Below, in pieces: positions 22,168 through 41,298 of a stretch of 64,000 bases of DNA. The position numbers and the translations under genes were made by a program. The DNA is from Chloracidobacterium sp. N (GTDB lineage Bacteria > Acidobacteriota > Blastocatellia > Chloracidobacteriales > Chloracidobacteriaceae). Every line of letters begins with the position of its first letter. Within the stretch, counting starts at the first letter, position 1. The stretch lies in NCBI RefSeq assembly GCF_018304765.1, contig NZ_CP072642.1, positions 1,765,819 through 1,829,818 on the forward strand, given 5' to 3'. Under the pieces are notes generated by a model. The model saw only the letters and a list, made by a program, of their open reading frames with translations. It searched no databases and had not been told where the DNA came from.

Positions 22168-23256
22168 TCAGCCCGATATGCGGGAAGCTGCCGCGTGAAA
22201 TGCCCGCCGCACATCCTGCAAGCTGGCCTGGTAAGGAAAGGTACGGTTGGTCAGCAGGATATAGACCCGCTCGGTCTGGGGGTCGCACCAGAGACTTGTG
22301 CCGGTAAAGCCAAGGTGGCCAAAGGCGGTCGGCGACAACCCGACGCCGGTTGCGTTCGGTGAACCGGCCAACATCCACCCAAACGAGCGGGCTTCGGCTT
22401 TCCCCGGCGTCAGGTTGGTCGAAAACCACTGGCAGGTTTCCGGGCGCAGCAGAGGGCTGCCCGGCAGAAACACCCGCGCCAGCTTCCACACTTCCCCGGC
22501 CGTCGCAAACAGCCCGGCATGGCCGGCTACGCCGCCGAGAAAATACGCATTGCCATCGTGGACTTCACCCTGAAGGCGCTGCGTACGCCAGCCGGCATAT
22601 CCCCGCAGCCGCGCCTGCACCAGAGGATGGTTCTCTGCGGCGATGAGCTGTTCCACCATACGGCGTTCATGGGCGTTGCCGTCTTCGGTCGGGGCCGTTC
22701 GTTCGCGCCATTCCGGCGGCGGACAGAACCGGGTGGCCGTCAGGCCCAAGGGCTGCGCCACGTGTGTCCCGAACAGAATGGCGAGCGGCTGTCCGGCCAG
22801 GTGTTCAAGCAGACGGCCCAGCACGATGTAGCCCAAGTCGCTATACACAACATTTTCGCCAGGTTTAGCCATCGGCGGTGTCTGCGCCATGACCGGCAGG
22901 ACTTCATCCGGCGTCGCACACATGGCATAGAGCGGCCGCCAGGCCGGGAAACCGCCGGTGTGCGTCACGGTCTGTGCAACCGTGACGCGCCCATAGGGAC
23001 TGTCGTGCAATGCTGGCAGCCACTTGCCCAGGTGGTCGTCGGGCGTGCACCGCCCCTGCTCGATAAAGAGCGCCAGCAGCAGCGCCGTGACCAGGGGTTT
23101 CGTCAGTGAAGCCAGGTCATACAGCGTATCGAAGCCGGCCGGGCCGACTGCGCCATGCGCCACCATGGTTTCACGGCAGGCGACGAGCCAGACGGCGCTC
23201 TGGATTTCCCCGGCATCCAGGGCGGCTTCGAGCTGTTCCCGCAACACATCGCCCAT
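22168..23256 (-). CDS. Serine hydrolase, class C beta-lactamase/penicillin-binding fold
   Basis: The 362-residue protein has the SxxK catalytic motif in ASLTKPLVT (near residue 51), the YSD motif in VVYSDLGY and an HxG-type motif in HLGFTGTS. This is the beta-lactamase (AmpC/esterase EstB) family, which includes D-aminopeptidases, esterases and peptidoglycan-related enzymes. No obvious signal peptide is seen, so it may act in the cytoplasm. Its ATG overlaps the mltG stop by one base (TAATG), implying coupled translation and perhaps a cell-wall role. Confidence 0.88.
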   Translation of the reverse strand: MGDVLREQLEAALDAGEIQSAVWLVACRETMVAHGAVGPAGFDTLYDLASLTKPLVTALLLALFIEQGRCTPDDHLGKWLPALHDSPYGRVTVAQTVTHTGGFPAWRPLYAMCATPDEVLPVMAQTPPMAKPGENVVYSDLGYIVLGRLLEHLAGQPLAILFGTHVAQPLGLTATRFCPPPEWRERTAPTEDGNAHERRMVEQLIAAENHPLVQARLRGYAGWRTQRLQGEVHDGNAYFLGGVAGHAGLFATAGEVWKLARVFLPGSPLLRPETCQWFSTNLTPGKAEARSFGWMLAGSPNATGVGLSPTAFGHLGFTGTSLWCDPQTERVYILLTNRTFPYQASLQDVRRAFHAAASRISG

Positions 23257-24317
23257 TACTTCTTGTTGATGAGCTGGGTATGCAGCCCCGGACGCTGCGC
23301 GCGCTGAAGCCTGCGATACTCAGCCACGGCCACCTGATGCTCGGCTTCGTTGCGCGAGAAGCGATGTCGTCCGCCGGGGCCCAGCACGAAGTACAGATAC
23401 TCCGTCTGCGCCGGCTGAAGGGCGGCCCGCAGCGATTTTTCACCCGGCGAGGCAATCGGCCCCGGCGGCAGCCCCGGAGAAAGGTAGGTGTTGTAGGGCG
23501 ACAGCAGGCGGCGGTGCGCCGGGTTGTTGACGTTGTCATCCCACGTGCCGTTGAGTTTGGCGGCGTAGATAAATGTTGGGTCACATTCCAGCCGCATGCC
23601 CTTGCGCAGCCGGTTGTGGAAGACACTCGCCACCAGCGGGCGTTCGGCATCGTCGGCGGCTTCCTTTTCAATCATGGAAGCCAAAGTCACCACCTGCCGC
23701 AGCGTCAGACGGCGGGCTTCCGCCTGCTGGCGCAGTTCCGGCGTCCATGCCCGGCGGAAACGGGCAACGGCCTCAGCCAGGATTTCAGCGTTCGTTGCCC
23801 GCTTTGGAACGATATAGGTATCCGGGAAAATGTACCCTTCGAGACTGGTGGCCTGCAGGTCAAGGTCGGCAATCAGGCGCACATCCAGCAGCGCCGGATC
23901 GAGTTTCCCGTTGGCCGGACGGTTTGGCAGCAGGTCGTTGACCTCGTGGATGGTCAACCCGGGCCGAAACATGATGCGGCGCGTGGCAACCGCGCCCCGG
24001 CGGATTTTTTCCAGCGCGGCCAGCGGAGCAATCGGCGATTCAAACTCGTAGTCTCCGGCCTGCAAACGGCGTCCGGCTGGGTTGAGCATCAGATAGACCA
24101 GTGCCGGGTAGCGGTTCGGGATGATGCCGCGCTCGTAGAGCAGTTCCACGACCTCGCGCGCGCCCATCCCCGGCTCGATGGTGATGAGTTCGTCGGCAGC
24201 CCGGTGACTGAACGGTACGTGCAGGCTCCGGTAGGACAGAAATCCCATCCCGACCACAGCCAGAAGGGCTACTGTGACGACCGCAAACCAGGCCAGTCGG
24301 CGGCGTAGATGTGCCAT
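23256..24317 (-). CDS. mltG: Endolytic murein transglycosylase MltG (YceG-like)
   Basis: The 353-residue protein has one N-terminal membrane anchor (residues 8-28), a LysM-like region with IEPGMGAREVVELLYERGII, and the YceG catalytic region LASMIEKEAADDAERPLVASVFHNRL, whose Glu in IEKE is catalytic. MltG cleaves nascent peptidoglycan strands at the inner membrane and sets glycan length. It starts the mltG-serine hydrolase pair. The C-terminal FSRNEAEHQVAVAEYRR is also typical. Confidence 0.93.
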   Translation of the reverse strand: MAHLRRRLAWFAVVTVALLAVVGMGFLSYRSLHVPFSHRAADELITIEPGMGAREVVELLYERGIIPNRYPALVYLMLNPAGRRLQAGDYEFESPIAPLAALEKIRRGAVATRRIMFRPGLTIHEVNDLLPNRPANGKLDPALLDVRLIADLDLQATSLEGYIFPDTYIVPKRATNAEILAEAVARFRRAWTPELRQQAEARRLTLRQVVTLASMIEKEAADDAERPLVASVFHNRLRKGMRLECDPTFIYAAKLNGTWDDNVNNPAHRRLLSPYNTYLSPGLPPGPIASPGEKSLRAALQPAQTEYLYFVLGPGGRHRFSRNEAEHQVAVAEYRRLQRAQRPGLHTQLINKK

Positions 24318-24554
24318 GACATATCCTGCTGGGGCAGATGATCAGACGCCCGCCACCATGCGAAGAATTACAGGTGAAACGGCGCGTTATGGCGCAGCAT
24401 GACACGAAACACAGCGGAGAACAACCCGCCGCATCATTCCGCGCCGCGACTGGAAAAAGGCTGAAGCAGGTCCGGCAGGAAGAAAAAAGCGGTCACGCCC
24501 GCGTGGAGCGTGACCGCCGGAAATCAGGTCAGGCTACCCTGACCGGGTTGAAGG
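24318..24554. other. Intergenic region between the S8 peptidase stop and mltG
   Basis: The left half (24318-24469) should hold the mltG promoter and leader, but no clear hexamers were recognised. The right half holds the duplicated terminator and a second short hairpin (24527-24544). Confidence 0.5.
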
Positions 24555-25193
24555 TTAGCGCCGCCGCCCGGGAGCCATCACAACCGGCGTCCGGGCAGGC
24601 GTCGTCGCTGTGGCATCCTCGCCAGACGTGGCCTTTGGCGTCACAGGCTCATCGCTGATGACCCGTGCCACCATTTTGCCGTTGGCATCAGGGGACACTT
24701 CAACCACCATCGTCCGAATCACCTGCCGCTGGTTCTCAACGCTTTCCGTCGTTGAAACCGGGCCGACAATCGCCAGCACGTCCACCAGCATACGCATCGT
24801 GCCGGTCGAAGGCATGTGCACCCGGAAGAAGATGTTGGTGGATTGTCCCGGTGCCAGCGAGCTAATTGGCGTACCCGAGCCAATCGGCGGCTGCCCGTTG
24901 AGGGTGGTCTGGATGGAGCCAGCCTGCCCACCAGTGTAGGCGCAGGGCCCGGCGTAGTCATCCGCCGACGCCAACCGGTGTGGATTGGGCGACGCCAGAA
25001 TGACGGCGTTCGGATTGGTGAAGTCCGGGAAGCCCAGCCCTTTCACCTGAATGGCGATGTTGGAGAGGGGCGCCGCACCGGTGTTGGTCAGCAGCCCAGC
25101 CAGAATCCCCCGGAACGGATAGCCGGGGCAGCCAAACAGCGCCGCCGTTGCCGACGGGTAAATCAGCATCTGCACCTGCGGGTTGACATTCGT
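24470..25193. repeat. Long repeat copy 1 (tail of S8 peptidase gene plus terminator)
   Basis: This segment of about 720 bp recurs, mostly near-identical, at 33456-34174. It covers the last 211 codons of the S8 peptidase gene, its stop, a 7-bp hairpin at 24527-24544 and the terminator at 24483-24517. Similarity ends sharply at both borders. Differences are concentrated in the middle of the coding part. Confidence 0.9.
24483..24517 (-). terminator. Rho-independent terminator of the S8 peptidase gene
   Basis: On the minus strand a perfect 10-bp stem (GCGGTCACGC and complement) with a 9-nt loop is followed by six T. It lies about 38 bp after the stop at 24555. The same element ends the nuclease gene at 33539. 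Confidence 0.9.
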
Positions 25194-28100
25194 CAGGCAG
25201 GCTGTGGTGAAGCAGTTGAGCGTGCCGGTCTGGATGGTCATGGACCAGCCGCCGTTGATGTTGCCGACATCACCACCGGCGAAGTCCTGCACGAACAGTT
25301 CCCACGTGCCGTTCACGCTTGCCCCGGACAACCCGTTGAAGATGTTCAGGTTGCTGTTGTAGGGCGGCGGTGGCAGCGGTGCCGCGAAGGTCCGCGACCC
25401 ACCGTTGTTGTTCGGGCTGTAGGTTCCGCTGGGCGGGAAGCCTGTCAGTGGCAATGGCGGGGCTGTCTGGTCAAACGTGTAGGTGCGGCCCGTCACGCCA
25501 CCGGAGCCGCCGATAGCGTTGTTGAACAGCACACAAATCTGACCGCCCGGACCCCGCAGGGCCACCCCCACGTCGCTGGGCCAGGTATGGTTGAAGTTGT
25601 TGATCGTCACCGTCACCTTCGTAATCGGCGCTGTGATGCCACTCACGTTGATGGTGGACGGATAGGGTGCTGCTGGTCCTGACGTTCCCGAGGCTGGAAT
25701 CGTGATCGGCGCCGGGTTGGAGAAGGTAAACGTGCCGCCCGGCGTCAACGGGCAGCCCGTCGCCACCGTGTAGCTGGCCGTACTCGGACTCGGTCCGCCC
25801 GGCCCGAATGCCACCGACACGTTGATGGTGACGGTCGTCCCCGGAACAAAGCTCGGTAGGAGCTTGAAGGTCACGTTGCCGGTCGCACTGCCACCCGGCG
25901 CCAGCGGGCCAAGGTTGACCGTGCTGCCGTTGACAATCGTCACCCCTGTCGTCGGTGAAGTGATGGTGGCAATGGCTGTCGTCGCCGTCGAGCCGCCCAC
26001 GTTCGTCACGGTGATGGCCGATTGCAGGGTCTCGCAGGGTTCAAAGAAGCCATCGCCGTCGCTGTTGAGCGTCCCCGGCAACTCGGTTGTGGTCTGACCC
26101 GTGAAGGTGACATTCGGAGCCGTCACAATGCCGCAGCACTGGAAGCCGTCCTGCACGGTGAGCGTGTCAATCCGCCACCCGGGCGCACCGATAATCGAGT
26201 CACTGCCCATGCGGAACCGCAGGATAACCGTCCGCGAGCCGCTTCCCGGCAGGTTCACCGTCGTGGTGATGTAGCCGCCGGAGTTGCCCGTCCAGGCCTG
26301 CCGCCCGCCGATGGGCGAGCCACTGTTGAGTGTGGCGTTGTAGCCGCCGGTGACAAAGCTTCCGCCGGCCGTGAGGATGTCCTGGAACGGCCCGCCGTTG
26401 ATGCTGATCTCCAGCACCCCGCCGTCCCAGAGATTTTCCGTGTTGTAGAAGTTGCGGAAGGTCAACCGCGCCTGATTCGTCGTCAGGTTGATGGGTGGTG
26501 TATCCAGCCGCTTGTCGCTGACCACAGCCGGGTTGTCCACGAAAGCGCAGTTGGGGGCTGTGTCGGGTGTGACATTCGATGTCACCCACAGAGGCGACGG
26601 GCCCGAAGCATTCGTTGCCGTCCAGCCCGCCGGAAGTGCCGGCGGCGTGACCGTATCGAAGTTCTGCGTCAGAACGTTGTTCGGCGTCCCAATCTGGAAC
26701 GAGAACGTCGCCGTTCCCAGACTGCCGTTGCTGTCGCTGAGGTTGAGTGTCATCGTCAGCGTCGTTCCGCACAGCCCGTTGACCGTGAAGGTGAAGGCCC
26801 GCGTCGCGCTGGCCCCAATCCCCAGCACACCGTAGTTCTGCGGGTTCGTGCCACCAATCGCGCCTACCCCGCCACCGGGCACCAGCGTGGCAATGAGGTT
26901 GCCGTTGGTCGGGGCTGTACCGTCATTGCGCAGCGTGATGTTGTAGGTCACGGTCTCGTTCTGATCGGGTACACCATTGTTGGGCACACAGCTTTCCGCC
27001 GTCAGGGTAGCGCTTACCCCGGTGATGACCGGCAGGGTCGCCGGCTGCCCATTGTGGACCACCAGCGCAAAGTCCTGGTTGTTCCCGGAAACGGTCGGGT
27101 CCGCCTGGGAATTGATGTTGGCTGCCCGTACGCGAATGACAAACGGTGTACCGGCTGCAAAAGGCGGCAGAAAGACATTCTCGACGTTGTTGCGGAAGTC
27201 GGCCGTCCCGCCCGTCACCGAGTTGGCGCCGCTGAAGACGTTCCCCCGGTACGTATTGCCGCCAATCGTCACTTCCAGATCGAGGTCGTTGTTATAGGCA
27301 TTACCTATCGTGGAACCCGGGGCATCTGTCCATCCCAGCGTCACCCGGAACGGGGCCGTTCCGTTGACCACCGTCCCGACAAACACCCGCTCCTGTCCCG
27401 TCGCCGTAAACCGGTCCGCCGGCACCTGGTCGCGGATAATCCGCTGCACGCCATTGAACGACGTGCCAAGGTTCATCATCCCCATCCCCTGGGAGTTCGA
27501 CCACAGCGTATCGTTGGCGCCCGTACCCGTCATATACCGCGCCGTGTTCATCAGGTACGCCTTCAGCATTGCCGGGCTGGGCGGGGCGCTGCCGGAAGGT
27601 GTCCGGTGTGCGCCAATGTAGGCCGGGTTGTTGATGAACTGCTGATAGACGAGCGCCGCCCCACCGGCCACGGCCGGGCAGGAATGGCTCGTCCCGGACG
27701 AGGTGGTGTACCACCGCTGCCCGGTCGAGGTCGGGAAGTAATTGTTGGGATTGCCGGCCGTGCCACCGCCCGGCATTGCACACACGCCACTACCCCGGAA
27801 GCCGGGATCACCCGTACCCGTATTATCTGGTGGTGACACCGGGTCTGAGGTGGCGGTTACATAGGCCATCCCGGTGATGTGCGTCCCCGGCGCGACGATG
27901 TCCGGCTTGCGGCGACCGTCCGCGCATGGCCCACGGCTTGAAAAGCTGATCATGTCATTGGCGCTGTCCGCGCCGGTATCCGGGATGCCACAGCCATCGT
28001 TCCCGGCGGCGTTGTTCCCACCGTTGGCCGTCGCGTGGGAATGCACGTTTTCGGCGGCGCCGACGGTGATGACGTTCTTCGCCGTACCCGGCGCGCCAAC

Positions 28101-29726
28101 CGTCTGTGCACCGGGACCGGCGTTCCCGGCCGCAAAGACCATGGCAAGCTGCTGATTGCCGGCCGTACCCGTATCCGCATCGCGCGTCCGCGCGTCATAG
28201 GTCTGGGAGTTCACGTTGTAGCCACCAGCCGTATTAGCGCCCCAGCTATTGCTGGTGATTCGGGCACCGCTGTTGTAGCCCGCCGCCAGCATGTTGTTGA
28301 AGTTGGGATTCCTGAAACTCGGGTCAAAAATGACCGAGTTGGCCAGCCGCACAAACGGCGCCACGCCCAACCCGTAGCGGAAGCCCTGCGGATCACGGTG
28401 GATGCGCGTGCCACCCGGGTCAAAGCTGTCCGGCACAAACCCGCCCACGATGCTCATGTTGAGCTGCCCGTGACCGTCAAAACCCAGCCCACCATCCGTA
28501 CCGGGCGAATTCCAGATACCCTTGTAGATAAAGCGCGACGTGCCGCCCAGAACACCGCTCTGCCAGAGGCTGAAGTGGCGTGCTGGCACCGGCCCGGCAT
28601 TGCTGCCGGACGGCACCGTGCCGGGGTCAGCCCCCGTCGGATTCCGGTCAGCGCCGTCGTCGGTCACGTCCACGACAAACCCGGACGAGTTGAACTGCGC
28701 CTGCGTAAAGCCCCAGCCCGACAGCAGTGAAAAGTAGTTGCCCGGATTTGGATTGTTGCCCGTGATGTTCCCGGCCACGATCATGTTCTGCCGTTCATCG
28801 AGCTTCTTGACCTCGACGTTCGGGTGAATCGAGACCACATCGGGCCGGTTGGCGACATCCGCCAGATAATCCGGCGACATCTTGATGAACAGGTTGACGT
28901 ACGGCCCCCATGCCTGGGTCTCCGCGATCTGCCGCGCCCCAATCTCGCGCAGCAGCTCAAACGTCCCCCGATTTCCCTGCTGGTCGGCGAAAAGCTGCAC
29001 CTGATACTCGCCGTTCGTGTCAATGTACTGCTTGCTGCCCGGAATCGCCGACGGGTGCACCTTGAACAACCCGTAAAACGGGCTGTCCCACTGCACGGCT
29101 TCCGTCCGCTGCGCCAGCGCACTGAGCGCCGCCAGGCTCTTGCTGTTCCCATAGACCAGATAAGCGTTGCTGGGAACGGCCGTGACAATCTGCACCCCGG
29201 TCGCTTCCAGCATCCGCACCCAGGCCGGCTGGATGGGCCCGGCAAACTGCACCAGCCGCATCCCAACCCCATCCACCAGCTCCTGCTGCCCGCGCAGCGA
29301 CTGTGCGGCCGGCGAAGTGGTGTTGATTTCTACGGCGTTGAGATAGACATAGTTGAAATCGTTGCGCTGCGTCACGCCCGGCTGGTCAGCCAGCCGTGCC
29401 GCTTCCTGTTCCGAGACTTCAATGACCCGGAAACCCTCGTACTCGCTGATGACTTTGGCGCTGCGCATGGCTTCCGTTGCCGGCGCGTCCGACTCGACAC
29501 GCAGCTTGGCCCGGTTGCCAGCTACTGAAAGCTCCCGGAGATTGGACAGGTTGAACGTTCCGGCGGTCAACTGCGCCCGCCCGGCCGCGCGCGTCAGCGG
29601 CGCGCGGAACGTGACCGCTATGCCGGCCACCAGAACCGTGGCCGCCACGACGAGCGGCAGAAGGCGTCGCCACGCCGGACGCCGACGCGGGCGTTCGGTG
29701 GGCGGAGAAGATGTGATGTCATTCAT
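24555..29726 (-). CDS. Very large secreted S8 (subtilisin-like) peptidase with P domain
   Basis: The 1723-residue protein has an N-terminal hydrophobic export segment (residues 22-42) and a propeptide-like region to about 320. The S8 catalytic domain has Asp around 354 (VVDVTDDGAD), His at 419 (FDGHGQ) and Ser at 680 (SSGTSHSCPAVAGG). Ig/CARDB-like beta domains follow, then a proprotein-convertase P domain at about 1385-1505 (NHTWPSDVGVALRGPGG), and a C-terminal module at 1513-1723 shared with the two nucleases nearby. It is presumably a secreted nutrient-acquiring or processing protease. The His motif lacks the common HGTH form, but the triad is complete. It is followed by a strong terminator. 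Confidence 0.92.
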   Translation of the reverse strand: MNDITSSPPTERPRRRPAWRRLLPLVVAATVLVAGIAVTFRAPLTRAAGRAQLTAGTFNLSNLRELSVAGNRAKLRVESDAPATEAMRSAKVISEYEGFRVIEVSEQEAARLADQPGVTQRNDFNYVYLNAVEINTTSPAAQSLRGQQELVDGVGMRLVQFAGPIQPAWVRMLEATGVQIVTAVPSNAYLVYGNSKSLAALSALAQRTEAVQWDSPFYGLFKVHPSAIPGSKQYIDTNGEYQVQLFADQQGNRGTFELLREIGARQIAETQAWGPYVNLFIKMSPDYLADVANRPDVVSIHPNVEVKKLDERQNMIVAGNITGNNPNPGNYFSLLSGWGFTQAQFNSSGFVVDVTDDGADRNPTGADPGTVPSGSNAGPVPARHFSLWQSGVLGGTSRFIYKGIWNSPGTDGGLGFDGHGQLNMSIVGGFVPDSFDPGGTRIHRDPQGFRYGLGVAPFVRLANSVIFDPSFRNPNFNNMLAAGYNSGARITSNSWGANTAGGYNVNSQTYDARTRDADTGTAGNQQLAMVFAAGNAGPGAQTVGAPGTAKNVITVGAAENVHSHATANGGNNAAGNDGCGIPDTGADSANDMISFSSRGPCADGRRKPDIVAPGTHITGMAYVTATSDPVSPPDNTGTGDPGFRGSGVCAMPGGGTAGNPNNYFPTSTGQRWYTTSSGTSHSCPAVAGGAALVYQQFINNPAYIGAHRTPSGSAPPSPAMLKAYLMNTARYMTGTGANDTLWSNSQGMGMMNLGTSFNGVQRIIRDQVPADRFTATGQERVFVGTVVNGTAPFRVTLGWTDAPGSTIGNAYNNDLDLEVTIGGNTYRGNVFSGANSVTGGTADFRNNVENVFLPPFAAGTPFVIRVRAANINSQADPTVSGNNQDFALVVHNGQPATLPVITGVSATLTAESCVPNNGVPDQNETVTYNITLRNDGTAPTNGNLIATLVPGGGVGAIGGTNPQNYGVLGIGASATRAFTFTVNGLCGTTLTMTLNLSDSNGSLGTATFSFQIGTPNNVLTQNFDTVTPPALPAGWTATNASGPSPLWVTSNVTPDTAPNCAFVDNPAVVSDKRLDTPPINLTTNQARLTFRNFYNTENLWDGGVLEISINGGPFQDILTAGGSFVTGGYNATLNSGSPIGGRQAWTGNSGGYITTTVNLPGSGSRTVILRFRMGSDSIIGAPGWRIDTLTVQDGFQCCGIVTAPNVTFTGQTTTELPGTLNSDGDGFFEPCETLQSAITVTNVGGSTATTAIATITSPTTGVTIVNGSTVNLGPLAPGGSATGNVTFKLLPSFVPGTTVTINVSVAFGPGGPSPSTASYTVATGCPLTPGGTFTFSNPAPITIPASGTSGPAAPYPSTINVSGITAPITKVTVTINNFNHTWPSDVGVALRGPGGQICVLFNNAIGGSGGVTGRTYTFDQTAPPLPLTGFPPSGTYSPNNNGGSRTFAAPLPPPPYNSNLNIFNGLSGASVNGTWELFVQDFAGGDVGNINGGWSMTIQTGTLNCFTTACLTNVNPQVQMLIYPSATAALFGCPGYPFRGILAGLLTNTGAAPLSNIAIQVKGLGFPDFTNPNAVILASPNPHRLASADDYAGPCAYTGGQAGSIQTTLNGQPPIGSGTPISSLAPGQSTNIFFRVHMPSTGTMRMLVDVLAIVGPVSTTESVENQRQVIRTMVVEVSPDANGKMVARVISDEPVTPKATSGEDATATTPARTPVVMAPGRRR

Positions 29727-30075
29727 CTGTGTTTTCCCTCATGAGGCTCTGCAAACTCACGCCACTGGCGGCGTGAGGGGGTGGATACAAACGGCACTGG
29801 CACACTCCACAAGGGGCGGCCGCCCGATACACTGAGCGTGGCAGAAACCGCATACAAAAAGCTGGCCTTCCAAAATGACCCGCGAGGCTGGATAAATTGC
29901 CGCGACAAGCCGTTTTCAAATGTGTGTGTCGTTGTTTACGCTTTGCGTGTGCCGTTTGTCAATGTCAAAACCGGCCGGACCACCTGGCCTGGCACGCGAT
30001 ATGCAAAGCACAAGCACGGCCGCGACGCCGGACGGCAAGCGGGTAAAATGCAGTAAGGGGGCAGCATACTCCAGC
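29727..30075. other. Divergent promoter region between the S8 peptidase and fmt
   Basis: The 349 bp contain a perfect 8-bp inverted repeat with a 6-nt loop at 29756-29777, in the leader of the peptidase gene. A minus-strand TTGACA within ATTGACAAAC (about 29953-29960) could be a -35 element for that gene, but the -10 is weak. No convincing small gene was seen. Confidence 0.45.
29756..29777 (-). promoter_or_regulatory. Leader hairpin upstream of the S8 peptidase gene
   Basis: CTCACGCC at 29756-29763 pairs with GGCGTGAG at 29770-29777 around a 6-nt loop, about 30 bp before the start codon at 29726. It could stabilise the leader or affect ribosome access. No T-run follows in either direction, so it is not a terminator. 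Confidence 0.4.
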
Positions 30076-31050
30076 ATGCGTATTGTCTTTATGGGCACGC
30101 CCAGCCTGGCCGTCCCAACCCTGCGGCGACTGCACCAGGACGGGCATGACCTCGTGGCTGTGGTTACACAGCCGGACCGCCCGGCCGGGCGCGGCCACCG
30201 CCTGCAACCTTCGCCGGTCACGGTTGCCGCCCGCGAACTGGGGCTGCCGGTCTGGCAGCCAACCAAAATCAAGACACCGGAATTTCATGCCGACCTGGCG
30301 TCCCTTGCCGCCGACATTGGCGTGGTTGTGGCTTATGGGCGGATTCTGCCGCCGCACCTGCTGGAAACCCCACGGCAGGGTTTTCTGAACGTCCACTTCT
30401 CGCTGCTTCCGAAGTATCGCGGCGCAGCCCCGGTCAACTGGGCCATTGCCCACGACGAAGCCCTGACCGGTGTGACCGTGATGTATATGGACGCCGGGCT
30501 GGACACCGGCGACATTGCCCTTCAGACCGAGTGCTGGATTGGGCGCGAAGAAACGGCCCCGGAACTGGGCGCGCGCCTGGCGCACCTTGGCGCAGAACTG
30601 CTCAGTGACGCACTGCGACAACTGGCAGAAGGCCAGCTTCCCCGGCGTCCCCAGGACGCGACGCAGGCAACCTACGCCCCGCTGCTCAAACGTGAAGACG
30701 GCTGGATTGACTGGTCCCTTCCGGCCACGGCCATTGCTGCGCGCATCCGGGCGTTCCAGCCCTTTCCCGGCAGTCACACGTACCTTGCCGGCCGCCGTGT
30801 CACCTTCTGGCGGGGGCAGGCGGCGCCGCTGCCGGATGGGACAACGCCCCCACCCGGTACGCTGCTGGCCGTCACGGATAACGCGCTGCTCATTGCCTGT
30901 GGGCAGGGCACGGGCCTGGCCGCACAGGAACTTCAGCTTGAAGGGCGCGCGCGGGTTTCGGCGCGGGACTTCGCCAATGGGTTGCGATTGCAGCCGGGGG
31001 CATGTTTCATGTCGCCGATGCCGGCCTCGCTGCGCACCGACTCTGAGTAA
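30076..31050 (+). CDS. fmt: Methionyl-tRNA formyltransferase
   Basis: The 324-residue enzyme formylates Met-tRNAfMet with 10-formyl-THF. It begins MRIVFMGTPSLAVPTLRRL and carries the formyl-transfer signature around LNVHFSLLPKYRGAAPVNWAI, with Asn-His and Asp of the active site (MDAGLDTGDIALQ), then a C-terminal OB-like domain. The start at 30076 is chosen because upstream in-frame sequence is non-conserved. It leads a plus-strand group with the DUF309, DUF486 and TPR genes. Its functional partner def is at 12104. Confidence 0.95.
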   Translation: MRIVFMGTPSLAVPTLRRLHQDGHDLVAVVTQPDRPAGRGHRLQPSPVTVAARELGLPVWQPTKIKTPEFHADLASLAADIGVVVAYGRILPPHLLETPRQGFLNVHFSLLPKYRGAAPVNWAIAHDEALTGVTVMYMDAGLDTGDIALQTECWIGREETAPELGARLAHLGAELLSDALRQLAEGQLPRRPQDATQATYAPLLKREDGWIDWSLPATAIAARIRAFQPFPGSHTYLAGRRVTFWRGQAAPLPDGTTPPPGTLLAVTDNALLIACGQGTGLAAQELQLEGRARVSARDFANGLRLQPGACFMSPMPASLRTDSE

Positions 31051-31070
31051 CGCGCCAACCACCCCAAGCA

Positions 31071-31856
31071 ATGTCTTCACCGCTGAGTTGGGATGCCTTT
31101 TGCACGCAGTTGCGCCCGACGTTCATCCCCCCTTTTGGCTGCCCGGAGTCGCTGGCCTTTGCCCTGCCCACGCTGGAGCATCTCCACTGGCTCGACCGCC
31201 AGGCCATCAAGCTCGCCGCGCGCCTCGACCGCCCGACCCGCCTCGTCCTTGACGACGACCCGCCGGCGCACCTGCGGGCGCGCCTCGAAGCCCAGTGCCT
31301 GACGCACGCTGACGCTGCCCCCCACCTGGGGCAGGTTGTTCCCTACGCGCCCGGCTTCATCCTGCACTGGATCCGGTGCGCCCTGCCCACGGCCCGGCTC
31401 GTGGCGCTGTGGCGGGATTACCAGACAAGCCTCGACCGGGCCCACCGGATTCCCACCGGCAGCAGCTATGCCGAGCGTTTTCCCCACCTGCGGCTGGGAC
31501 TGATGCTGGGCGCCGACCTGTTCAACTGCGGCGAGTTCTATGCCGCCCACGAAGACTGGGAAGCCCTCTGGATGCGCCTGCCGGAAGGCGGCGAAAAGCT
31601 GGTCATCCAGGGTCTCATCCAGCTCTGCGGCGTCCACATTCACCGCCTCAAAGGACGGGCCGAGCCAATGCAGGTGCTGTTTGACAAGGCGCGCCTCAAC
31701 CTGGCCGAAGGCGGACAGGACACCCCCTGGCTGGACGTTGCGCAGCTTTTGCGCGAAACGGAAACCATCCTTCAGACCCCGCTCGCAGCTCCCATCCGCG
31801 CGCCGGAAATCCCGCTCGTCAACGAACACGCCGATGTCCCGTGCAAGCATCGGTAA
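31071..31856 (+). CDS. DUF309 domain protein
   Basis: The 261-residue protein has an unrecognised N-terminal half and a C-terminal DUF309 helical domain from about residue 145. That domain carries the family pattern LFNCGEFYAAHEDWEALWM and LVIQGLIQLCGVHIHRLKGR, in which conserved Glu, His and Trp line a putative site. The function of DUF309 is unknown. It lies 20 bp after fmt and 9 bp before the DUF486 gene, so all are probably cotranscribed. Confidence 0.82.
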   Translation: MSSPLSWDAFCTQLRPTFIPPFGCPESLAFALPTLEHLHWLDRQAIKLAARLDRPTRLVLDDDPPAHLRARLEAQCLTHADAAPHLGQVVPYAPGFILHWIRCALPTARLVALWRDYQTSLDRAHRIPTGSSYAERFPHLRLGLMLGADLFNCGEFYAAHEDWEALWMRLPEGGEKLVIQGLIQLCGVHIHRLKGRAEPMQVLFDKARLNLAEGGQDTPWLDVAQLLRETETILQTPLAAPIRAPEIPLVNEHADVPCKHR

Positions 31857-31865
31857 ATCTGGTCT

Positions 31866-32216
31866 ATGCGGACGGTCATCCTGCTCATTCTCAGCAATCT
31901 GTTCATGACGGTGGCCTGGTACGGACACCTGCGCCACCGGGGTGTGACCCTGTGGAAGGTCATTCTCATCAGTTGGGGTATCGCGTTTTTTGAATACTGC
32001 CTGCAGGTGCCGGCCAACCGCTGGGGCTACGGGCAGTTCACGGCCTTCCAGCTCAAGATTCTGCAGGAAATCATCACGCTTCTGGTCTTTGTCGCCTTCG
32101 CCATCACCTACCTGCACGAGCCGCTGCGGTGGAACTATGCCGTGGCATTTCTCTTCATCCTCGCGGCCGTGTACTTTGCCTTCCTCCCGGCATCATCCAC
32201 GCCGGCGCACCCATGA
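31866..32216 (+). CDS. DUF486 small membrane protein
   Basis: The 116-residue protein has about four hydrophobic segments. It shows the DUF486 hallmarks: NLFMTVAWYGHL near the N-terminus, WGIAFFEYCLQVPANRWGY in the middle and LKILQEIITLLVF after it. The family resembles small drug/metabolite transporters in size and topology, but its role is unknown. It sits 9 bp downstream of the DUF309 gene. Confidence 0.88.
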   Translation: MRTVILLILSNLFMTVAWYGHLRHRGVTLWKVILISWGIAFFEYCLQVPANRWGYGQFTAFQLKILQEIITLLVFVAFAITYLHEPLRWNYAVAFLFILAAVYFAFLPASSTPAHP

Positions 32217-32235
32217 CGGAAGCCTTGAAAAAGCG

Positions 32236-33399
32236 ATGAAAGCAAGGCGCGAAACACTGGTTGGCGGTTGGCTCCGGGTTTTCCTGCTGGTGGGCCTCGT
32301 GTCCGGCTTCCCTGCATCAGCGGCCGGCGCGCTGGCGGTTCAGACGATTCCACGCGAGAGTGTCCGCTGGCACTACGAACGGGCGCTGGTGCTCGATGCC
32401 CAGGGGCATACCGGACGGGCCATCGCGGCACTCTACCGCGCGCTCGATGCCGCCGAAGAACAGCGCCACGCGCTTGAAGTCGCCATCAAGGCAAAACTGA
32501 CGGAAACCGACCGTATGGCGTTGGAACAACTGGAGCGTACGGCCCGCGACCGCCGTCTGGCCGGTTCATCCCGGCAGCAGCAGACGCAGGTGGAGCTGGC
32601 CCAAGCCTTTGACCAACTGGCTGCCCGGCATCTTTCGGCTGCCGATCTGGGCCTCTGGCAGACGCTTGCCGTGCAGGTGACGGAGTGCCGCTACTTTCTG
32701 GCCCGGCTGTACTGGCGCAGCGAGCGCACGGCCGACGCCATTATGACGCTGGTTCAGGTGATGGACGTGCCGGCGATGCCGGAGCACATCCTGGCGCGTC
32801 TGTTGCTTGCGCGGGCCTATGGACAACTCGGCGCGTGGGAATATGCCCAGCCCCATCTGGAACGGCTGGCGGCACTGACCGATCTCCAGGACCCGGCGGC
32901 CCGGCGCGCACTGGAACGCCTCCGCAAAGCCGTGGCCCAGCCAAAGAGCAGCGATCCATCGTCCGCTCGCGCCGACCTGCAAGCCGTGGTCACGGCCATC
33001 GAGCAGGCTTTCCTGTCCAGCCCGGCCGCCTACCGCGCGTTGACGCTGGGCCGTCACCTGCACGACCCGCTGGCCTATCTGGAGCTGGCGCATCTGTGCG
33101 AGGAGGAAGACACCCCGGAGGAACTGCGCGCCACCCTGCAGGAAGGGATTCGCGTGCGGGGCAACTTCTTCCCGGTTGCCTGGCTGGCGCTTGGAGCCGA
33201 AGCCGAACAGCAGGCGGCGGAACTCGAAGCGGCCAACCAGGCCGCCGAGGCGCAGCAGGCTTACCGGCGCGCCGCCGAGGCCTTTGCAACGGCGTTCGAG
33301 CAGCTTCAGCAGCTTGATTTTCAGCCGGTCCGCGATTTTGACCCGGAACGACTCACCACCCTGCGCCGGAAACTGGCGCAACGTCAGGAACAGCCGTAG
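32236..33399 (+). CDS. Exported TPR-like helical repeat protein
   Basis: The 387-residue protein has a signal peptide (residues 1-30, ending near SAAGA). Helical repeats of tetratricopeptide type follow, for example YERALVLDAQGHTGRAIAALYRAL, and a C-terminal Ala/Glu/Gln-rich coiled region around 330-370. It is probably periplasmic. TPR proteins scaffold complexes, and no specific partner can be named. I chose the ATG at 32236, 20 bp after the DUF486 gene; the longer upstream frame overlaps that gene and is rejected. Confidence 0.75.
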   Translation: MKARRETLVGGWLRVFLLVGLVSGFPASAAGALAVQTIPRESVRWHYERALVLDAQGHTGRAIAALYRALDAAEEQRHALEVAIKAKLTETDRMALEQLERTARDRRLAGSSRQQQTQVELAQAFDQLAARHLSAADLGLWQTLAVQVTECRYFLARLYWRSERTADAIMTLVQVMDVPAMPEHILARLLLARAYGQLGAWEYAQPHLERLAALTDLQDPAARRALERLRKAVAQPKSSDPSSARADLQAVVTAIEQAFLSSPAAYRALTLGRHLHDPLAYLELAHLCEEEDTPEELRATLQEGIRVRGNFFPVAWLALGAEAEQQAAELEAANQAAEAQQAYRRAAEAFATAFEQLQQLDFQPVRDFDPERLTTLRRKLAQRQEQP

Positions 33400-33455
33400 C
33401 TCTTTCCAGCACAAACAAGTCCTTTCCGCCGGGCACAAAAGGCACGTCAAATCCT

Positions 33456-34174
33456 GTCCGGCAGACAAAAAAGCGGTCACGCCCGCGTGGAGCGTGACCG
33501 CCGGAAATCAGGTCAGGCTACCCTGACCGGGTTGAAGGTTAGCGCCGCCCGGGAGCCATCACAACCGGCGTCCGGGCAGGCGTCGTCGCTGTGGCATCCT
33601 CGCCAGACGTGGCCTTTGGCGTCGCCGGCTCATCGCTGATGACCCGTGCTACCATTTTGCCGTTGGCATCAGGGGACACTTCAACCACCATCGTCCGAAT
33701 CACCTGCCGCTGGTTCTCAACGCTTTCCGTCGTTGAAACCGGGCCGACAATCGCCAGCACATTCACCAGCAGGCGAATCGGACCGGTCGAAGGCACCCGC
33801 ACCCGGAAGAAGACACTCGTGGACTGCCCTGCCGCCAGCGGGCTAATCGGCACACCAGTGCCAACCGGCGGCTGCCCGTTGAGCGTGGTCTGGATGGAGC
33901 CAGCCTGCCCGCCAGTGTAGGCACACGGCCCGGCGTAGTCATCCGCCGACGCCAACCGGTGCGGATTCGGCGTCGCCAAAATGACCGCGCTCGGATTGGT
34001 GAAGTCCGGGAAGCCCAGCCCTGTCACCTGAATGGCGATGTTGGAGAGAGGTGCTGCACCAATGTTGGTCAGCAGCCCAACCAGCGTCGCCTGCAACGGA
34101 TAGCCGGGGCAGCCAAACAGCGCCGTGGTTGCCGACGGGTAAATCAGCATCTGCACCTGCGAGTTGACGTTCGT
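33456..34174. repeat. Long repeat copy 2 (tail of first nuclease gene plus terminator)
   Basis: This is the partner of 24470-25193. It includes the last 210 codons of the nuclease gene and the same terminator. At its right border, about 14 bp later (near 34187), similarity to the second nuclease gene begins. The gene is therefore a join of two sources. Confidence 0.9.
33467..33501 (-). terminator. Rho-independent terminator of the first nuclease gene
   Basis: The same 10-bp stem and 9-nt loop as at 24483-24517 is followed on the minus strand by six T. It lies about 38 bp after the stop at 33539. Confidence 0.9.
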
Positions 34175-37100
34175 TGGTGTTTGAATCACCACCCGCTTCG
34201 GGTCGTGGTCAGACAAGCGCCTGGGTGACAACGGATTGTTGCGGTCCACTTCCGGGAAATCCGCGTTGACCCGCGCCGTTTCAGAGAAGGCAATGCCCGA
34301 CAGGTTTTGGGTGACTGCCACCTGGTCTAGCGTCTGGGCACTGCCGTCAAACAGGAAGGAATAGTTCGCCGAGTTCACTGCCGTCCCCGTCAGACTCACC
34401 AGCGGGGGCGTCGGCGGATTCCACCCCGCCGTCGGCGCCAACACCACACGGGTGTCATTCGCGCCACTGGTCGGCGGCGTCGGCGCATTGCCCAGAATCG
34501 TGTTGTAGATGTCCGCGTAACCGTCGTTGAACTGGAAGCCGTTGAAGTCGCCGATGACCACCATGCGCTCATTCGGATTCAGTATCTGTCGCTGGCGAAT
34601 GAGGTTAGCGACGAACTCGGCCTGCAACTGCCGCTTGTGGCGGACCCGGTAGCCCTCATTCGGATAACCGTTGACCGGAGAGCCGCCGCTGTCAATGCCA
34701 CTTAGTGAACGCTGGTGCACGTTGATGACCGTAAACGCAAAGCCCCCCAGCGCCCCCTGCAAAATGATCGGCGGACGGTCGTTGAGAATGGCCGTCGAAC
34801 TGTCAGGACGCACATACGTATCGGTCGCGCCCACCTGCGTCACACTGCTCACTGTGACGCGGTTGGTATTGACCAGATAGGCCACGGCAATCCCGCCCAC
34901 GTCATTGGTCGGGAAGATGTACCCCACGTAAAACGGCAGCGCCGGGTTGCTGTTTGTGGGATTGCCGTTGTCGGTGTTGAGCCGCGCCGCCATGTCGTTG
35001 ATGACGACATTGAGATCGTCGGTCGGCGCTTCCACTTCCTGCAACCCAATCACATCCGGGTTGCGCAGAATGTTCCGCACCTGAAGGGAAAACTTGCTGA
35101 GGCGATTGCTGTACGCCGTCGCCGTCAGCACCGGTTCGCTCCGCCCCGGATCATTACGGTTGTCAAAAAACCGCTGCACGTTCATCGAGGCAATCGTCAA
35201 CTCACTGGCTGCGCGCACCGACAACGGAATCGCCTCCCCTACCCCCGGCCCACCACTGTTGGAAAACACCGGCGGATTGGCCGCCTCCGGCAAAATCGTA
35301 AACGTGCGGAAGCTATAGTCCAGCGCCCCGACCAGATTCGTCACAATGGCCGGATAGGGCGTACTTGGGTCAAAATCCCCCGACGGCACGTTGAGCGCCG
35401 TCGTGTTGGGTTGCGCCGTGCTGTCCACCCGCAGCACCTCCGGGTTGGCATCCCAGCGCGGCACGTTGACCGGCGGCGGCAACGTCCCCGTCACTCCGCC
35501 ATTGGGAACAGTGTCCGGGAAGCGGATGCCCGGCTCACGAAACGGACGGTCGGCGCAAAAGCCGCTGCCGCACACCTCCGCCACAACGCCAAAAAACCGC
35601 CCGTTTGTCGTTGATGTGGCATTCGTTTCATTGATGCTCCCCCCGGTGGGCGACACCACCGCCAGATGCTGCACTGCCACCCGCATCCCCTCAAACCGCT
35701 CGTAGCGCAACGGCAGGGTCGGCTCCAGTGGCGACGGCGTGCTGGCAATGGCCGGAGTGATGACCGTCGGTGCCGGCAAGGGAACACTGCACGCCAGCCG
35801 GGCAATCGTCAGTGACCCCGAAAGCTGCGTCACCGACGGCTGCTGCGGGTCAGCCGCGGGGACAAACTCATTGACCGTACCCCGTACCCGCACCAGGTTC
35901 CCAATCTGCACCGGCGGCGTGCTGCCCGTGAACACAAACAGCCCTTCGGACGTGTTCGGATTGCCGTCATCGAGCGCAGAGCCGTCCGGCGTCTGGACGA
36001 AAAACCCGTTGCTGCGCAGCCCATACACCACGCCTTCGGTCGTCTGCACCGTGCTGACCAGCGGCGAGGTGTTGCCTGTCCCCTGAATCTGGTTGATGGG
36101 CGTGACCGGTGTTGCCGCCACGACGTTGACCGTGATGGTGCAATCCGCGGTCTGGGGCGTCGGGGTGTCGTTGTTTGACCAGCGGACGACAACGCTGTAG
36201 CTCCCAACTGGCACGGTGTTGGCAATCTGCAGGGTGGCCGTGGCTGTGCCGCCGACGCCGGTTGCCGGAACAAAGTCCACAATGGAGAAGCCAGCCGTGG
36301 GTGGCGTGACACTGAAGACGACGGCGCTGTTGACGATGCTGTCGTTATCTGTAGCGCTCAAGCCGCAGGCAACAGCAGTCGTTCCCTGAAACGCCGCCAC
36401 CGTCCCCGGACACGACGGCACAATCGGCGCGGTTGGCGGCGGACCGCCGCCGGTCAGCGTGAAGTTGTCAATGCCAAAGCTGTCACGGTTGCCGGAGCCG
36501 CTTGAAGCACTCAGCGCCACGATGCGGAAGAAGACACTGGGCTGGTTGCTGACCTCGGCCGACTGCGTTGGCGACAGCGTCACAGAGATGTTGGTGTTGC
36601 CCCACGTGCCGGGGTCGGTGTAGGTGGCCAGCGTCACGAAGGAGGTTGGGTTTGCGCCGACGCCGTATTGCAGCGTCCAGGTTGTACTGCGCGGCTGGAC
36701 GCTCAGCATCTGGGCATCGAAGCTGACAGCGGTGATGGTTTCCCCGGTCGTATTCCGCTGGTAGGTAAAGGCCGCACCGGGGTCGCCGAAACTTCCGGTC
36801 TGCCGGATGCCCAGTGCCCGGTCCGGGGCGCTGTTTTGGGTCGCGTCGGGCGTTGAGGCATTGAAACCGGCGTTGTTGGCCGAGGCAAAGTTTTTGAAGG
36901 CCCCGCTGGTGTTTCCCCAAGGTATGGAAGCGGTTGAAAATGAAACCGGCGTGCCAAGTGAGGATGCTGTCGCGCCGGTGTTCACCGTCCAGCCGGATGG
37001 CAGACCGCTGCCGATGCCGTCAAAGGTTTCGACATAGGGGATCATCGTCGTGGCCGGGACGGCCGGCGCCGCTGTGGAAGGACGGGCGGCGGTGTTGGCG

Positions 37101-37210
37101 CTCATCGGCCGCGACCACGGCCCATACACCGCGAGCAGCGCACAGGCCATACCAATCACGAACACTGACGCCACATAGCGCCAGCGTGTCTGATTCATCA
37201 TAACGTGCAT
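33539..37210 (-). CDS. Secreted ExeM-like nuclease (endonuclease/exonuclease/phosphatase fold), copy A
   Basis: The 1223-residue protein has a signal segment (residues 5-30), a beta-sandwich region (about 55-255), an Ig-like domain (260-365) and an OB-fold region as in ExeM (about 370-500). An EEP nuclease domain at about 640-1010 has IASMNVQRFF, GLQEVE, VIGDFNGF and SDHD, giving the expected Asn, Glu, Asp-Asn and Asp-His residues. A C-terminal module (1013-1223) matches the S8 peptidase tail. It probably degrades extracellular DNA. The start MHVMMNQTRWRYVAS matches copy B. The body is near-identical to copy B, and the tail is not. Confidence 0.88.
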   Translation of the reverse strand: MHVMMNQTRWRYVASVFVIGMACALLAVYGPWSRPMSANTAARPSTAAPAVPATTMIPYVETFDGIGSGLPSGWTVNTGATASSLGTPVSFSTASIPWGNTSGAFKNFASANNAGFNASTPDATQNSAPDRALGIRQTGSFGDPGAAFTYQRNTTGETITAVSFDAQMLSVQPRSTTWTLQYGVGANPTSFVTLATYTDPGTWGNTNISVTLSPTQSAEVSNQPSVFFRIVALSASSGSGNRDSFGIDNFTLTGGGPPPTAPIVPSCPGTVAAFQGTTAVACGLSATDNDSIVNSAVVFSVTPPTAGFSIVDFVPATGVGGTATATLQIANTVPVGSYSVVVRWSNNDTPTPQTADCTITVNVVAATPVTPINQIQGTGNTSPLVSTVQTTEGVVYGLRSNGFFVQTPDGSALDDGNPNTSEGLFVFTGSTPPVQIGNLVRVRGTVNEFVPAADPQQPSVTQLSGSLTIARLACSVPLPAPTVITPAIASTPSPLEPTLPLRYERFEGMRVAVQHLAVVSPTGGSINETNATSTTNGRFFGVVAEVCGSGFCADRPFREPGIRFPDTVPNGGVTGTLPPPVNVPRWDANPEVLRVDSTAQPNTTALNVPSGDFDPSTPYPAIVTNLVGALDYSFRTFTILPEAANPPVFSNSGGPGVGEAIPLSVRAASELTIASMNVQRFFDNRNDPGRSEPVLTATAYSNRLSKFSLQVRNILRNPDVIGLQEVEAPTDDLNVVINDMAARLNTDNGNPTNSNPALPFYVGYIFPTNDVGGIAVAYLVNTNRVTVSSVTQVGATDTYVRPDSSTAILNDRPPIILQGALGGFAFTVINVHQRSLSGIDSGGSPVNGYPNEGYRVRHKRQLQAEFVANLIRQRQILNPNERMVVIGDFNGFQFNDGYADIYNTILGNAPTPPTSGANDTRVVLAPTAGWNPPTPPLVSLTGTAVNSANYSFLFDGSAQTLDQVAVTQNLSGIAFSETARVNADFPEVDRNNPLSPRRLSDHDPKRVVIQTPTNVNSQVQMLIYPSATTALFGCPGYPLQATLVGLLTNIGAAPLSNIAIQVTGLGFPDFTNPSAVILATPNPHRLASADDYAGPCAYTGGQAGSIQTTLNGQPPVGTGVPISPLAAGQSTSVFFRVRVPSTGPIRLLVNVLAIVGPVSTTESVENQRQVIRTMVVEVSPDANGKMVARVISDEPATPKATSGEDATATTPARTPVVMAPGRR

Positions 37211-37335
37211 ATTGGCTTTCGCTCCTGGGTCTGTGCTGCGCCGGCCAACCGGGTATCCACGCCGCAGGCAGCCGGGCAGTGAAAGAGAAAGTTCATTGAG
37301 GACAACTGGACATTGTGTAGAGTGGCCCAACCTTA
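34187..37335. repeat. Tandem gene duplication, copy A body and leader
   Basis: This 3.1-kb block matches 38152-41298 with long stretches of identity, for example around 36450-36600 versus 40410-40560. It includes about 125 bp upstream of the start codon. The two blocks are in direct orientation. Confidence 0.9.
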
Positions 37336-37522: not shown

Positions 37523-40500
37523 CTACCGCCGACGACCAAACCGCGTTCCAGGTATTGCCGTACCGGAAGTCAGCGGCGCTACTGTCAGCCGCCCTTTGTC
37601 CTGCAGCAGTTCAAAGCCGAAACCTGTCCCTTTCAGCGGCACGGTCGTTGCCATCACCAGCCCCGGTGCCTGCCCTTCGTTCAACGCCACCGGGCAGGCC
37701 GTCCCGCCAACCCCGAAGACGTTGACAAAGAACCGCAGCCGCCGCACACCTGGCAAGGCAAGACGAAGGGTTATTACTCGCGACTCTCTTGGATTGAGAG
37801 TGCCAATTGGTGTGTTGCTGCCAATCGGCGCCTGTCCGTTGACCGTGGACTGGTCCGCGCCAGCCTGCCCGCCACTGCTGCACGTGGCCCCATCCGCCGT
37901 CAGCAGCCGGTGCGGGTTGGGCGTGGCCACAATCACGCCGGTCGGCGTACTGTCGGGATACCCCAGTCCCACCACCTGCACAAAGACATCCGAGATGGTC
38001 TGGGTACTCGTGTTCGTCAGCACGGCCGTCAGCACGAGGTCGCCGGCGTAGTTGGGCAGCCCGCAGGTGTTCCCCGCCAGCGCCTGCCCGGTGATGTTGA
38101 GCGAAACCCGGCAGTTCTGGAGCACCGGCGTCGCCGTCGGCACCAAAATGGTAACCCGCTTCGGATCGTGGTCGGACAACCGCTTGGGCGATGCCGGATT
38201 GTTCCGGTCCACTTCGGGGAAGTCCGCGTTGACCCGCGCCGTTTCAGAGAAGGCAATGCCCGACAGGTTTTGGGTGACTGCCACCTGGTCAAGCGTCTGT
38301 GCGCTGCCATCGAAGAGGAAGGAATAGTTCGACGAGTTCACCGCCGTCCCTGTCAGGCTCACCAGCGGCGGCGTCGGTGGATTCCACGCGGCCGTCGGTG
38401 CCAGCACGACCCGGGTATCATTTGCGCCGCTGGTCGGCGGCGTCGGCGCATTGCCCAGAATCGTGTTGTAGATGTCCGCGTAACCGTCGTTGAACTGGAA
38501 GCCGTTGAAGTCGCCGATGACCACCATGCGCTCATTCGGATTCAGTATCTGTCGCTGGTGAATGAGGTTAGCGACGAACTCGGCCTGCAACTGCCGCTTG
38601 TGGCGGACCCGGTAGCCCTCATTCGGATAGCCGTTGACGGGACTACCGCCCGTGGCAATGTCATTCAACGAACGCTGGTGCACGTTGATGACCGTGAACG
38701 CAAAGCCCCCCAGCGCCCCCTGCAAAATGATCGGCGGACGGTCGTTGAGAATCGCCGTCGAACTGTCCGGCCGCACATACGTATCGGTCGCCCCCACCTG
38801 CGTCACACTGCTCACTGTGACGCGGTTGGTATTGACCAGATAGGCCACGGCAATCCCGCCCACGTCATTGGTCGGGAAGATGTACCCCACGTAAAACGGC
38901 AGCGCCGGGTTGCTGTTTGTGGGATTGCCGTTGTCGGTGTTGAGCCGCGCCGCCATGTCGTTGATGACGACATTGAGATCGTCGGTCGGCGCTTCCACTT
39001 CCTGCAACCCAATCACATCCGGGTTGCGCAGGATGTTCCGCACCTGAAGGGAAAACTTGCTGAGGCGATTGCTGTACGCCGTCGGCGTCAATACCGGTTC
39101 GCTCCGCCCCGGATCGTTCCGGTCGTCAAAGAATCGCTGGACGTTCATCGAGGCAATCGTGAGGTCAGTTGCAGGACGGACGGACAGCGGGATGGCCTCG
39201 CCTACCCCAGGATCGCCGTTGTTGGAGAAGACCGGCGGGTTGGCCGCTTCCGGCAAAATCGTGAACGTGCGAAACGCATAGTCCATCGCTCCGACCAGAT
39301 TCGTCACAATGGCCGGATAAGGTGTACTCGGATCAAAGTCCCCCGACGGCACGTTGAGTGCCGTCGTGTTGGGTTGCGCCGTGCTGTCCACCCGCAGTAA
39401 CTCCGGGTTGGCATCCCAGCGCGGCACGTTGACCGGCGGCGGCAACGTCCCCGTCACTCCGCCATTGGGAACAGTGTCCGGGAAGCGGATGCCCGGCTCA
39501 CGAAACGGACGGTCGGCGCAAAAGCCGCTGCCGCACACCTGCGCCACAACGCCAAAAAACCGCCCGTTCGTCGTTGATGTGGCATTCGTTTCATTGATGA
39601 AACCGCCGGTGGGCGACACCACCGCCAGATGCTGCACTGCCACCCGCATCCCCTCAAACCGCTCGTAGCGCAACGGCAGGGTCGGCTCCAGTGGCGACGG
39701 CGTGCTGGCAATGGCCGGAGTGATGACCGTCGGTGCCGGCAAGGGAACACTGCACGCCAGCCGGGCAATCGTCAGTGACCCCGAAAGCTGCGTCACCGAC
39801 GGCTGCTGCGGGTCAGCCGCGGGGACAAACTCATTGACCGTACCCCGTACCCGCACCAGGTTCCCAATCTGCACCGGCGGCGTGCTGCCCGTGAACACAA
39901 ACAGCCCTTCGGACGTGTTCGGATTGCCGTCATCGAGCGCAGAGCCGTCCGGCGTCTGGATGAAGAACCCGTTGCTGCGCAGCCCATAGACGACACCTTC
40001 CGTCGTCTGCACCGTGCTGACCAGCGGCGAGGTGTTGGTTGTCCCCTGAATCTGATTGATGGGCGTGACCGTCGCCGTCGCCACGACGTTGACCGTGATG
40101 GTGCAATCCGCAGTCTGGGGCGTCGGGGTGTCGTTGTTTGACCAGCGGACGACGACGCTGTAGGTCCCGGTCGGGACGGTGTTGGCAATCTGCAGGGTGG
40201 CCGTGGCCGTGCCACCAGGGCCGGTTGCCGGGACGAAGCCCACGATGGAAAAGCCGGTTGTGGGCGGCGTCACGCTGAAGACCGTAGCGTTGTTAATGAT
40301 GCTGCTGGTGGAAGTGGCGCTCAGCCCGCAGGCAACAGCGGTCGTTCCCTGAAACGCCGCCACCGTCCCCGGACACGACGGCACAATCGGCCCAGTCGGC
40401 GGTGGGCTGCTGGTCAGGGTGAAGTTGTCAATGCCAAAGCTGTCACGGTTGCCGGAGCCGCTTGAAGCACTCAGCGCCACGATGCGGAAGAAGACACTGG

Positions 40501-41173: not shown

Positions 41174-41298
41174 AATGGCTTTAGCTCCCGGTCTATACTG
41201 CGCCGGCTAACCGGGCACCTATGCCGCAGGCAGCCGGACAGTGGAAAAAGAAAGTTCATCAAGTGCATACGGACACGGCATAGAGTATCCCAACCTTC
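38152..41298. repeat. Tandem gene duplication, copy B body and leader
   Basis: This is the direct-repeat partner of 34187-37335. It ends on the left just after the SDHD codons and on the right about 125 bp before the start codon. Confidence 0.9.

Follow-up and report, generated by a model that had tools for sequence, protein, structure and literature searches.

Organization of the locus

Two nuclease genes, copies A and B, lie beside each other on the reverse strand of the window, the 64,000-nucleotide stretch of the Chloracidobacterium sp. N genome analyzed here. An S8 peptidase gene, P, lies on the same strand and shares its 3′ end with copy A. The features, with the evidence for each, are as follows.

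33539–37210, reverse strand: nuclease copy A, chimeric, 1223 aa, with a signal peptide, an ExeM/NucH-like endonuclease/exonuclease/phosphatase body and a P-type C-terminal tail (start by homology to copy B)
34175–37334, reverse strand: nuclease-derived segment of copy A, comprising the promoter region (~124 bp) and the body to just past SDHDPKRV (identity to 38154–41297, breakpoint, body tree)
33456–34174, reverse strand: S8 peptidase-derived segment of copy A, comprising a 211-codon tail, stop, 7-bp hairpin and terminator (identity to 24470–25193, breakpoint, tail tree, RNA fold)
34171–34175, no strand: recombination joint, given as the 2 log-unit support interval (breakpoint scan and alignment)
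37523–41173, reverse strand: nuclease copy B, 1216 aa, whose N-type tail is the ancestral one (this tail also on the orthologues of four further species)
37523–38153, reverse strand: N-type tail of copy B, a distant homologue of the P-type tail (BLASTN, tail comparison, tail tree)
24555–29726, reverse strand: S8 peptidase P, 1723 aa, with subtilase, CARDB-like and P-domains and a P-type tail (domain search)
24470–25193, reverse strand: P-type tail of the peptidase with 3′ UTR hairpin and terminator, matching the copy A 3′ end (BLASTN)
24463–26107, reverse strand: longer 3′ block of CARDB-like domain, P-domain, tail and terminator, common to P and a second peptidase, Q (comparison with Q, 89%)
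25194–33455, no strand: 8.26-kb unit between the two tail copies, which stand as direct repeats; it holds three genes besides the peptidase body, one of them formyltransferase-like at 29920–31050 (BLASTN, related loci)

Homology to copy B places the start of copy A at ATG 37210 rather than TTG 37330. Both nuclease copies carry the EEP catalytic motifs LQEVE, GDFNGF and SDHD, and PF03372 scored slightly under its cut-off for the nuclease. NF033681 (ExeM/NucH) matches the catalytic region of both copies (E 1e-32), with 112–115 bits against a cut-off of 300; full membership of that family was therefore rejected, and we call the copies ExeM/NucH-like. The catalytic region resembles that of ExeM/NucH, whereas the C-terminal module of the Chloracidobacterium nucleases differs. 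Among the S8 peptidases, PF00082 exceeded its gathering score (126.7 bits for P, 134.8 bits for Q) and PF01483 (P-domain) its cut-off. This pair is shared with other subtilases that carry a P-domain; Chloracidobacterium adds a lineage-specific tail.

Chloracidobacterium is a phototrophic genus of Acidobacteriota whose habitat is hot springs. The strain N genome (G000; 3,715,176 bases, two contigs) was sequenced with PacBio (PMC8245765). It was compared with a sister genome (G001; two contigs, ~3.7 Mb; probably C. thermophilum B) and with further species, G003–G006, of which G005 is the Bulgarian isolate BV2-C (contigs of 2,659,040 and 1,000,103 bases).

Copy A is a chimeric gene with a sharp joint

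BLASTN of the window against itself divided copy A into two blocks, as the initial annotation had proposed. The body matched copy B (34191–37334 against 38154–41297, 91.0% identity), with homology reaching ~124 bp upstream of both start codons, and the 3′ end matched that of the peptidase gene (33456–34174 against 24470–25193, 91.6%). Apart from these blocks, the window contained practically no other matches. A two-parent breakpoint scan, the kind of check that the annotation had suggested, placed the joint at 34171–34175, with lnL −392 versus −1137 for an "all B" and −1114 for an "all P" origin, a gain of more than 700 log-likelihood units over either single parent. Across the joint, identity in 40-nt windows falls from 0.82–1.00 to 0.40 between A and B and climbs from 0.35 to 0.95 between A and P, bearing out the claim that the two similarity blocks meet abruptly. 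The annotation had set the joint just after SDHD; that position is correct and can be refined to ~9 codons beyond the motif. Long homology is absent at the joint itself in the alignments, and the resolution was therefore illegitimate or by microhomology.

At the protein level, the copy A tail is ~88% identical to that of the peptidase versus ~41% to that of copy B, the opposite of the relationship that the annotation had named as speaking against its reading. N-type and P-type tails share ~74% identity over 136 nt (BLASTN), the B tail being a distant homologue of the A tail. The 7-bp hairpin and the 13-bp terminator stem both fold at the copy A 3′ end (RNA fold, z = −3.7), in agreement with their description in the annotation. 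Between species, the copy A body is under purifying selection (dN/dS 0.15). Copy A is a real chimeric gene that most likely arose by ectopic recombination. The hairpin itself, GGTCAGG/CCTGACC, lies between stop codon and terminator (33456–33538 and 24470–24554) and is present in the P-type tail copies of G000 and G001.

Ancestral pairings and a third tail copy

A P-type tail is also found on the P peptidase of G003, G004 and G006, whereas the nuclease, present once in each of G003, G004, G005 and G006, has an N-type tail, as does copy B. Copies A and B are sisters within the nucleases in the body tree; in the tail tree, copy A groups with the peptidases, and the two trees conflict with high support. 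The pairings elsewhere, together with this conflict, therefore indicate that the nuclease was duplicated and that copy A, not copy B, changed its tail. Since other species have kept the ancestral pairing, the donor can be deduced in each case. These results uphold the view of the initial annotation that recombination exchanged the C-terminal module in its entirety, 3′ end included, while the enzyme body kept its source.

The same P-type 3′ end occurs on peptidase Q, 345 kb from the window locus (G000:C1:2144118 region, L035 4205–5846). Q and P have 1.65 kb of 3′ sequence in common (24463–26107, 89%), and their peptidase bodies are just 40–70% alike. In G003, G004, G005 and G006, the Q orthologue (or its tail end) bears an R-type tail instead; Q, too, must therefore have acquired its 3′ end from elsewhere, in the common G000/G001 ancestor. 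Comparison with related genomes, likewise suggested by the annotation, recovered the same three chimeric arrangements in the sister genome G001. In G005 and G006, the C-terminal region of the Q orthologue differs and carries the R-type tail.

Concerted evolution of tails and bodies

In G001, the three tails are 98.4–99.8% alike among genes, a near-identity that could partly be assembly collapse, the assembly apparently being a 2011 Roche-454 one. Between G000 and G001, by comparison, orthologous tails are 88.8–93.7% alike. Tails are thus closer within G001 than orthologues are between the species, and gene conversion therefore continued after the species split. Among 97 variable tail sites, 21 are species-fixed in all three genes, all within the last ~200 nt, and 2 are paralogue-fixed, both among the six tail bases nearest the joint. 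With the G000 tails labeled A0 (copy A), P0 (peptidase P) and Q0 (peptidase Q), P0–Q0 dS within G000 alone is 0.017 for the terminal part of the tail versus 0.33 in the P-domain just upstream, a contrast independent of the older G001 assembly. The tracts show sharp boundaries (34171–34175), with silent sites (dS) and UTR equally affected, as in gene conversion.

The nuclease bodies show 134 paralogue-fixed versus 40 species-fixed sites. The species-fixed sites lie mostly at alignment positions 1000–2480, with clusters at 1782–2364 and 1001–1055, and also at 374–419; the body ends hold most of the 134 paralogue-fixed sites. This mid-body clustering indicates that the bodies of A and B also undergo gene conversion. 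Copy A is accordingly a bridge, its body converting with B and its tail with P and Q. The species-fixed sites cluster in the catalytic part, and the N-terminal thirds of A and B remain distinct.

An opposite tail replacement in isolate BV2-C

The P peptidase orthologue of G005, whose body is 76% identical at the nucleotide level, carries the nuclease N-type tail and terminator. This tail matches the tail and 3′ end of the isolate's own nuclease at 96.7% over 662 nt (L045 8276–8937, L046 9556–10213), although the genes are ~1.17 Mb apart, and in the alignment the identity ends at the terminator T-run. Body and tail meet in the same linker, directly after the P-domain, at the same domain boundary. 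dS between the two G005 tails is 0.061 versus 0.96 to window copy B, and the tail tree pairs them with support of 100/99. These data show that the tail replacement in G005 was independent of that in copy A and ran in the opposite direction. The evidence from G000 and G005 is independent of the G001 assembly, both genomes being PacBio. Exchange of the 3′ module is recurrent and bidirectional. The three-member tail pool, the conversion after the species split, the reverse swap in G005 and the mid-body exchange between A and B all go beyond the initial annotation.

Origin of the chimeric gene

As a whole, an intragenomic tail swap with later conversion, acting on a module-type tail, is likely the best explanation of these observations. 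The nuclease gene would have been duplicated together with its promoter, and the N-type tail of one copy would have been replaced by the whole P-type tail of the neighboring S8 peptidase, with stop codon, hairpin and terminator; ectopic recombination within the genome would so have yielded copy A as a functional chimeric gene. Recombination was probably initiated by strand invasion within the ~130-bp tail core, where N and P tails still share ~74%; that identity over 136 nt was perhaps enough to start homeologous pairing. Resolution would have fallen at two places where breaks should do no harm, the linker and the stretch immediately beyond the terminator. After the sister species separated, the shared tail acted as a recombination patch and was homogenized among copy A, P and Q, and the central body of A was converted with that of B, as the site patterns show for both.

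The alternative that fares best, although we regard it as rather unlikely, is a movement of the body: nuclease promoter and body would have been duplicated into a neighboring P-tailed gene or gene remnant, replacing its 5′ part and giving the same end product as a tail swap. It draws on the arrangement of the locus, in which the two P-tails form direct repeats around the 8.26-kb unit, as expected from joining via a pre-existing P-tail, for instance by single-crossover integration of a circle. The unit was not found between the nuclease and the gene at 23256–24317 in G003 and G005, where the nuclease directly adjoins that gene. Against this, no pre-existing P-tailed neighbor is seen, because neither G005 nor G006 has a tail-bearing gene beside the peptidase unit on the corresponding side. 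The arrangement may fit either a later tail conversion from a new neighbor or integration of the unit via a pre-existing P-tail, and tail-to-body and body-to-tail movement may each accord with evidence that does not strictly separate them. As a side observation, recombination between the direct-repeat tails (24470–34174) should free a circle of ~9 kb with the peptidase and three genes.

Judged by the window alone, it is formally possible that copy A is the original and copy B gained its N-type tail. This is made very improbable by the distribution of the tails, N-type on the single nuclease in G003–G006 and P-type on the peptidase in G003, G004 and G006, with which the trees agree; only recombinant outgroup nucleases could save it from refutation. 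Equally improbable is movement of the 3′ module as a reverse-transcribed mRNA 3′ end (cDNA), an idea that takes its appeal from the shared blocks ending near the terminator: the 96.7% identity in G005 stops at the terminator T-run, and the copy A block ends ~15 nt beyond the terminator. However, P and Q share ~35 nt past the terminator in G001, and a break just past the terminator would be harmless for any recombination as well.

Common selection on the protein, suggested by conserved motifs in tails of all types, has next to no probability as the source of the likeness, since the similarity is just as high at synonymous sites and in the untranslated elements (hairpin and terminator), the joint is sharp and species-fixed differences are common to genes with different bodies. 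An assembly artefact through mis-joining of the 720-bp repeats is just as negligible: the three G000 tails differ by 6–9%, the joint is identical in two independently sequenced species, and the strain N genome is a PacBio one (PMC8245765).

Comparison with known systems

Ectopic recombination and gene conversion are already known in bacteria; what is unusual here is the unit (a C-terminal domain with its terminator), its exchange across enzyme classes and the tail family that underlies it, which has no name. In bacterial paralogue gene conversion (PMC6053082), paralogues within a genome are likewise closer than orthologues between species, at both synonymous and non-synonymous sites, whereas in Chloracidobacterium only the 3′ module, stop and terminator included, is homogenized, and between genes with unrelated bodies. 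The gingipains and HagA of Porphyromonas gingivalis (PMC5266723) offer a parallel: these secreted proteases and this adhesin have adhesin domains that are interchangeable, have been reshaped by recombination and bear a common C-terminal export signal (the T9SS CTD). Chloracidobacterium differs from them in domains, phylum and export signal, and its exchange crosses enzyme classes and runs in opposite directions in two lineages. The case is a clean natural example of how bacterial proteins evolve by modules, and the order of events is fixed by sister species and outgroups.

MYXO-CTERM and GlyGly-CTERM (PMC11980579; PMC13393428) are similar in that a C-terminal tag with a basic end is placed on many unrelated exported proteins. 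By their NCBIfam names, relatives of the enzymes described here (ExeM, M36 peptidases) carry such sorting tags in other phyla. The Chloracidobacterium tail, by contrast with MYXO-, GlyGly- and PEP-CTERM, is a domain of ~150 residues plus a linker, with neither a transmembrane segment nor a signature motif. Assignment to these tags was rejected on the lack of a transmembrane helix before the basic C-terminus: the maximum 19-residue hydropathy in the last 45 residues of 18 tails was ≤1.08, and no transmembrane segment was found near the tail end.

The tail family

A profile built from 18 tails detected 4–7 copies in most genomes of the genus, with about 5 in strain N; G008 has 29, and G009 gave no match. 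Among 297 Acidobacteriota genomes drawn, the profile matched only in the window's family. Tail-like domains in G007 were left out, being internal rather than C-terminal. The bodies capped by the tail comprise S8 subtilases, EEP nucleases, an M12B-like peptidase, DUF5122 propellers, and Ig and BACON proteins. A basic C-terminal residue is present in all 18 tails and two basic residues in 15 of the 18; among the 42 ORFs of the window, two basic C-terminal residues occur only in the three tail genes.

Across the 18 members, no significant Pfam match to the tail was found (best DUF4232, E 0.011, then Transglut_C, 0.077), and a PDB sequence search with the tail returned one insignificant hit. The predicted structure is beta-rich at low confidence (pLDDT 59), with weak Ig-like beta-sandwich hits and no significant PDB fold match. 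A search of five genomes for SprA (T9SS) gave no match, as did its positive controls.

The tail would be mobile because it forms an independent domain at the C-terminus, with a linker in front and a basic end, and caps unrelated Sec-exported proteins of the family. From this distribution, we consider it plausible, with slightly less than even confidence, that the tail is a putative interchangeable module for surface sorting, attachment or matrix binding, any tail fitting any body. A more doubtful, narrower reading takes it as a putative tag on the substrates of an export or surface-anchoring system that is undescribed and limited to the Chloracidobacterium family; recognition would be of the folded domain together with the basic dipeptide at its end, and tags would then be overwritten and homogenized to fit one common receptor. 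The data point to an unnamed C-terminal domain family, putatively resembling a surface-sorting or attachment tag, in phototrophic Chloracidobacterium.

In G008, whose contigs are fragmented, 28 tails were compared, and many are 78–97% alike over short stretches. Tail pieces of L115 and L124/L128 in this genome are 94–97% alike over ~165 nt at contig edges and possibly represent further conversions.
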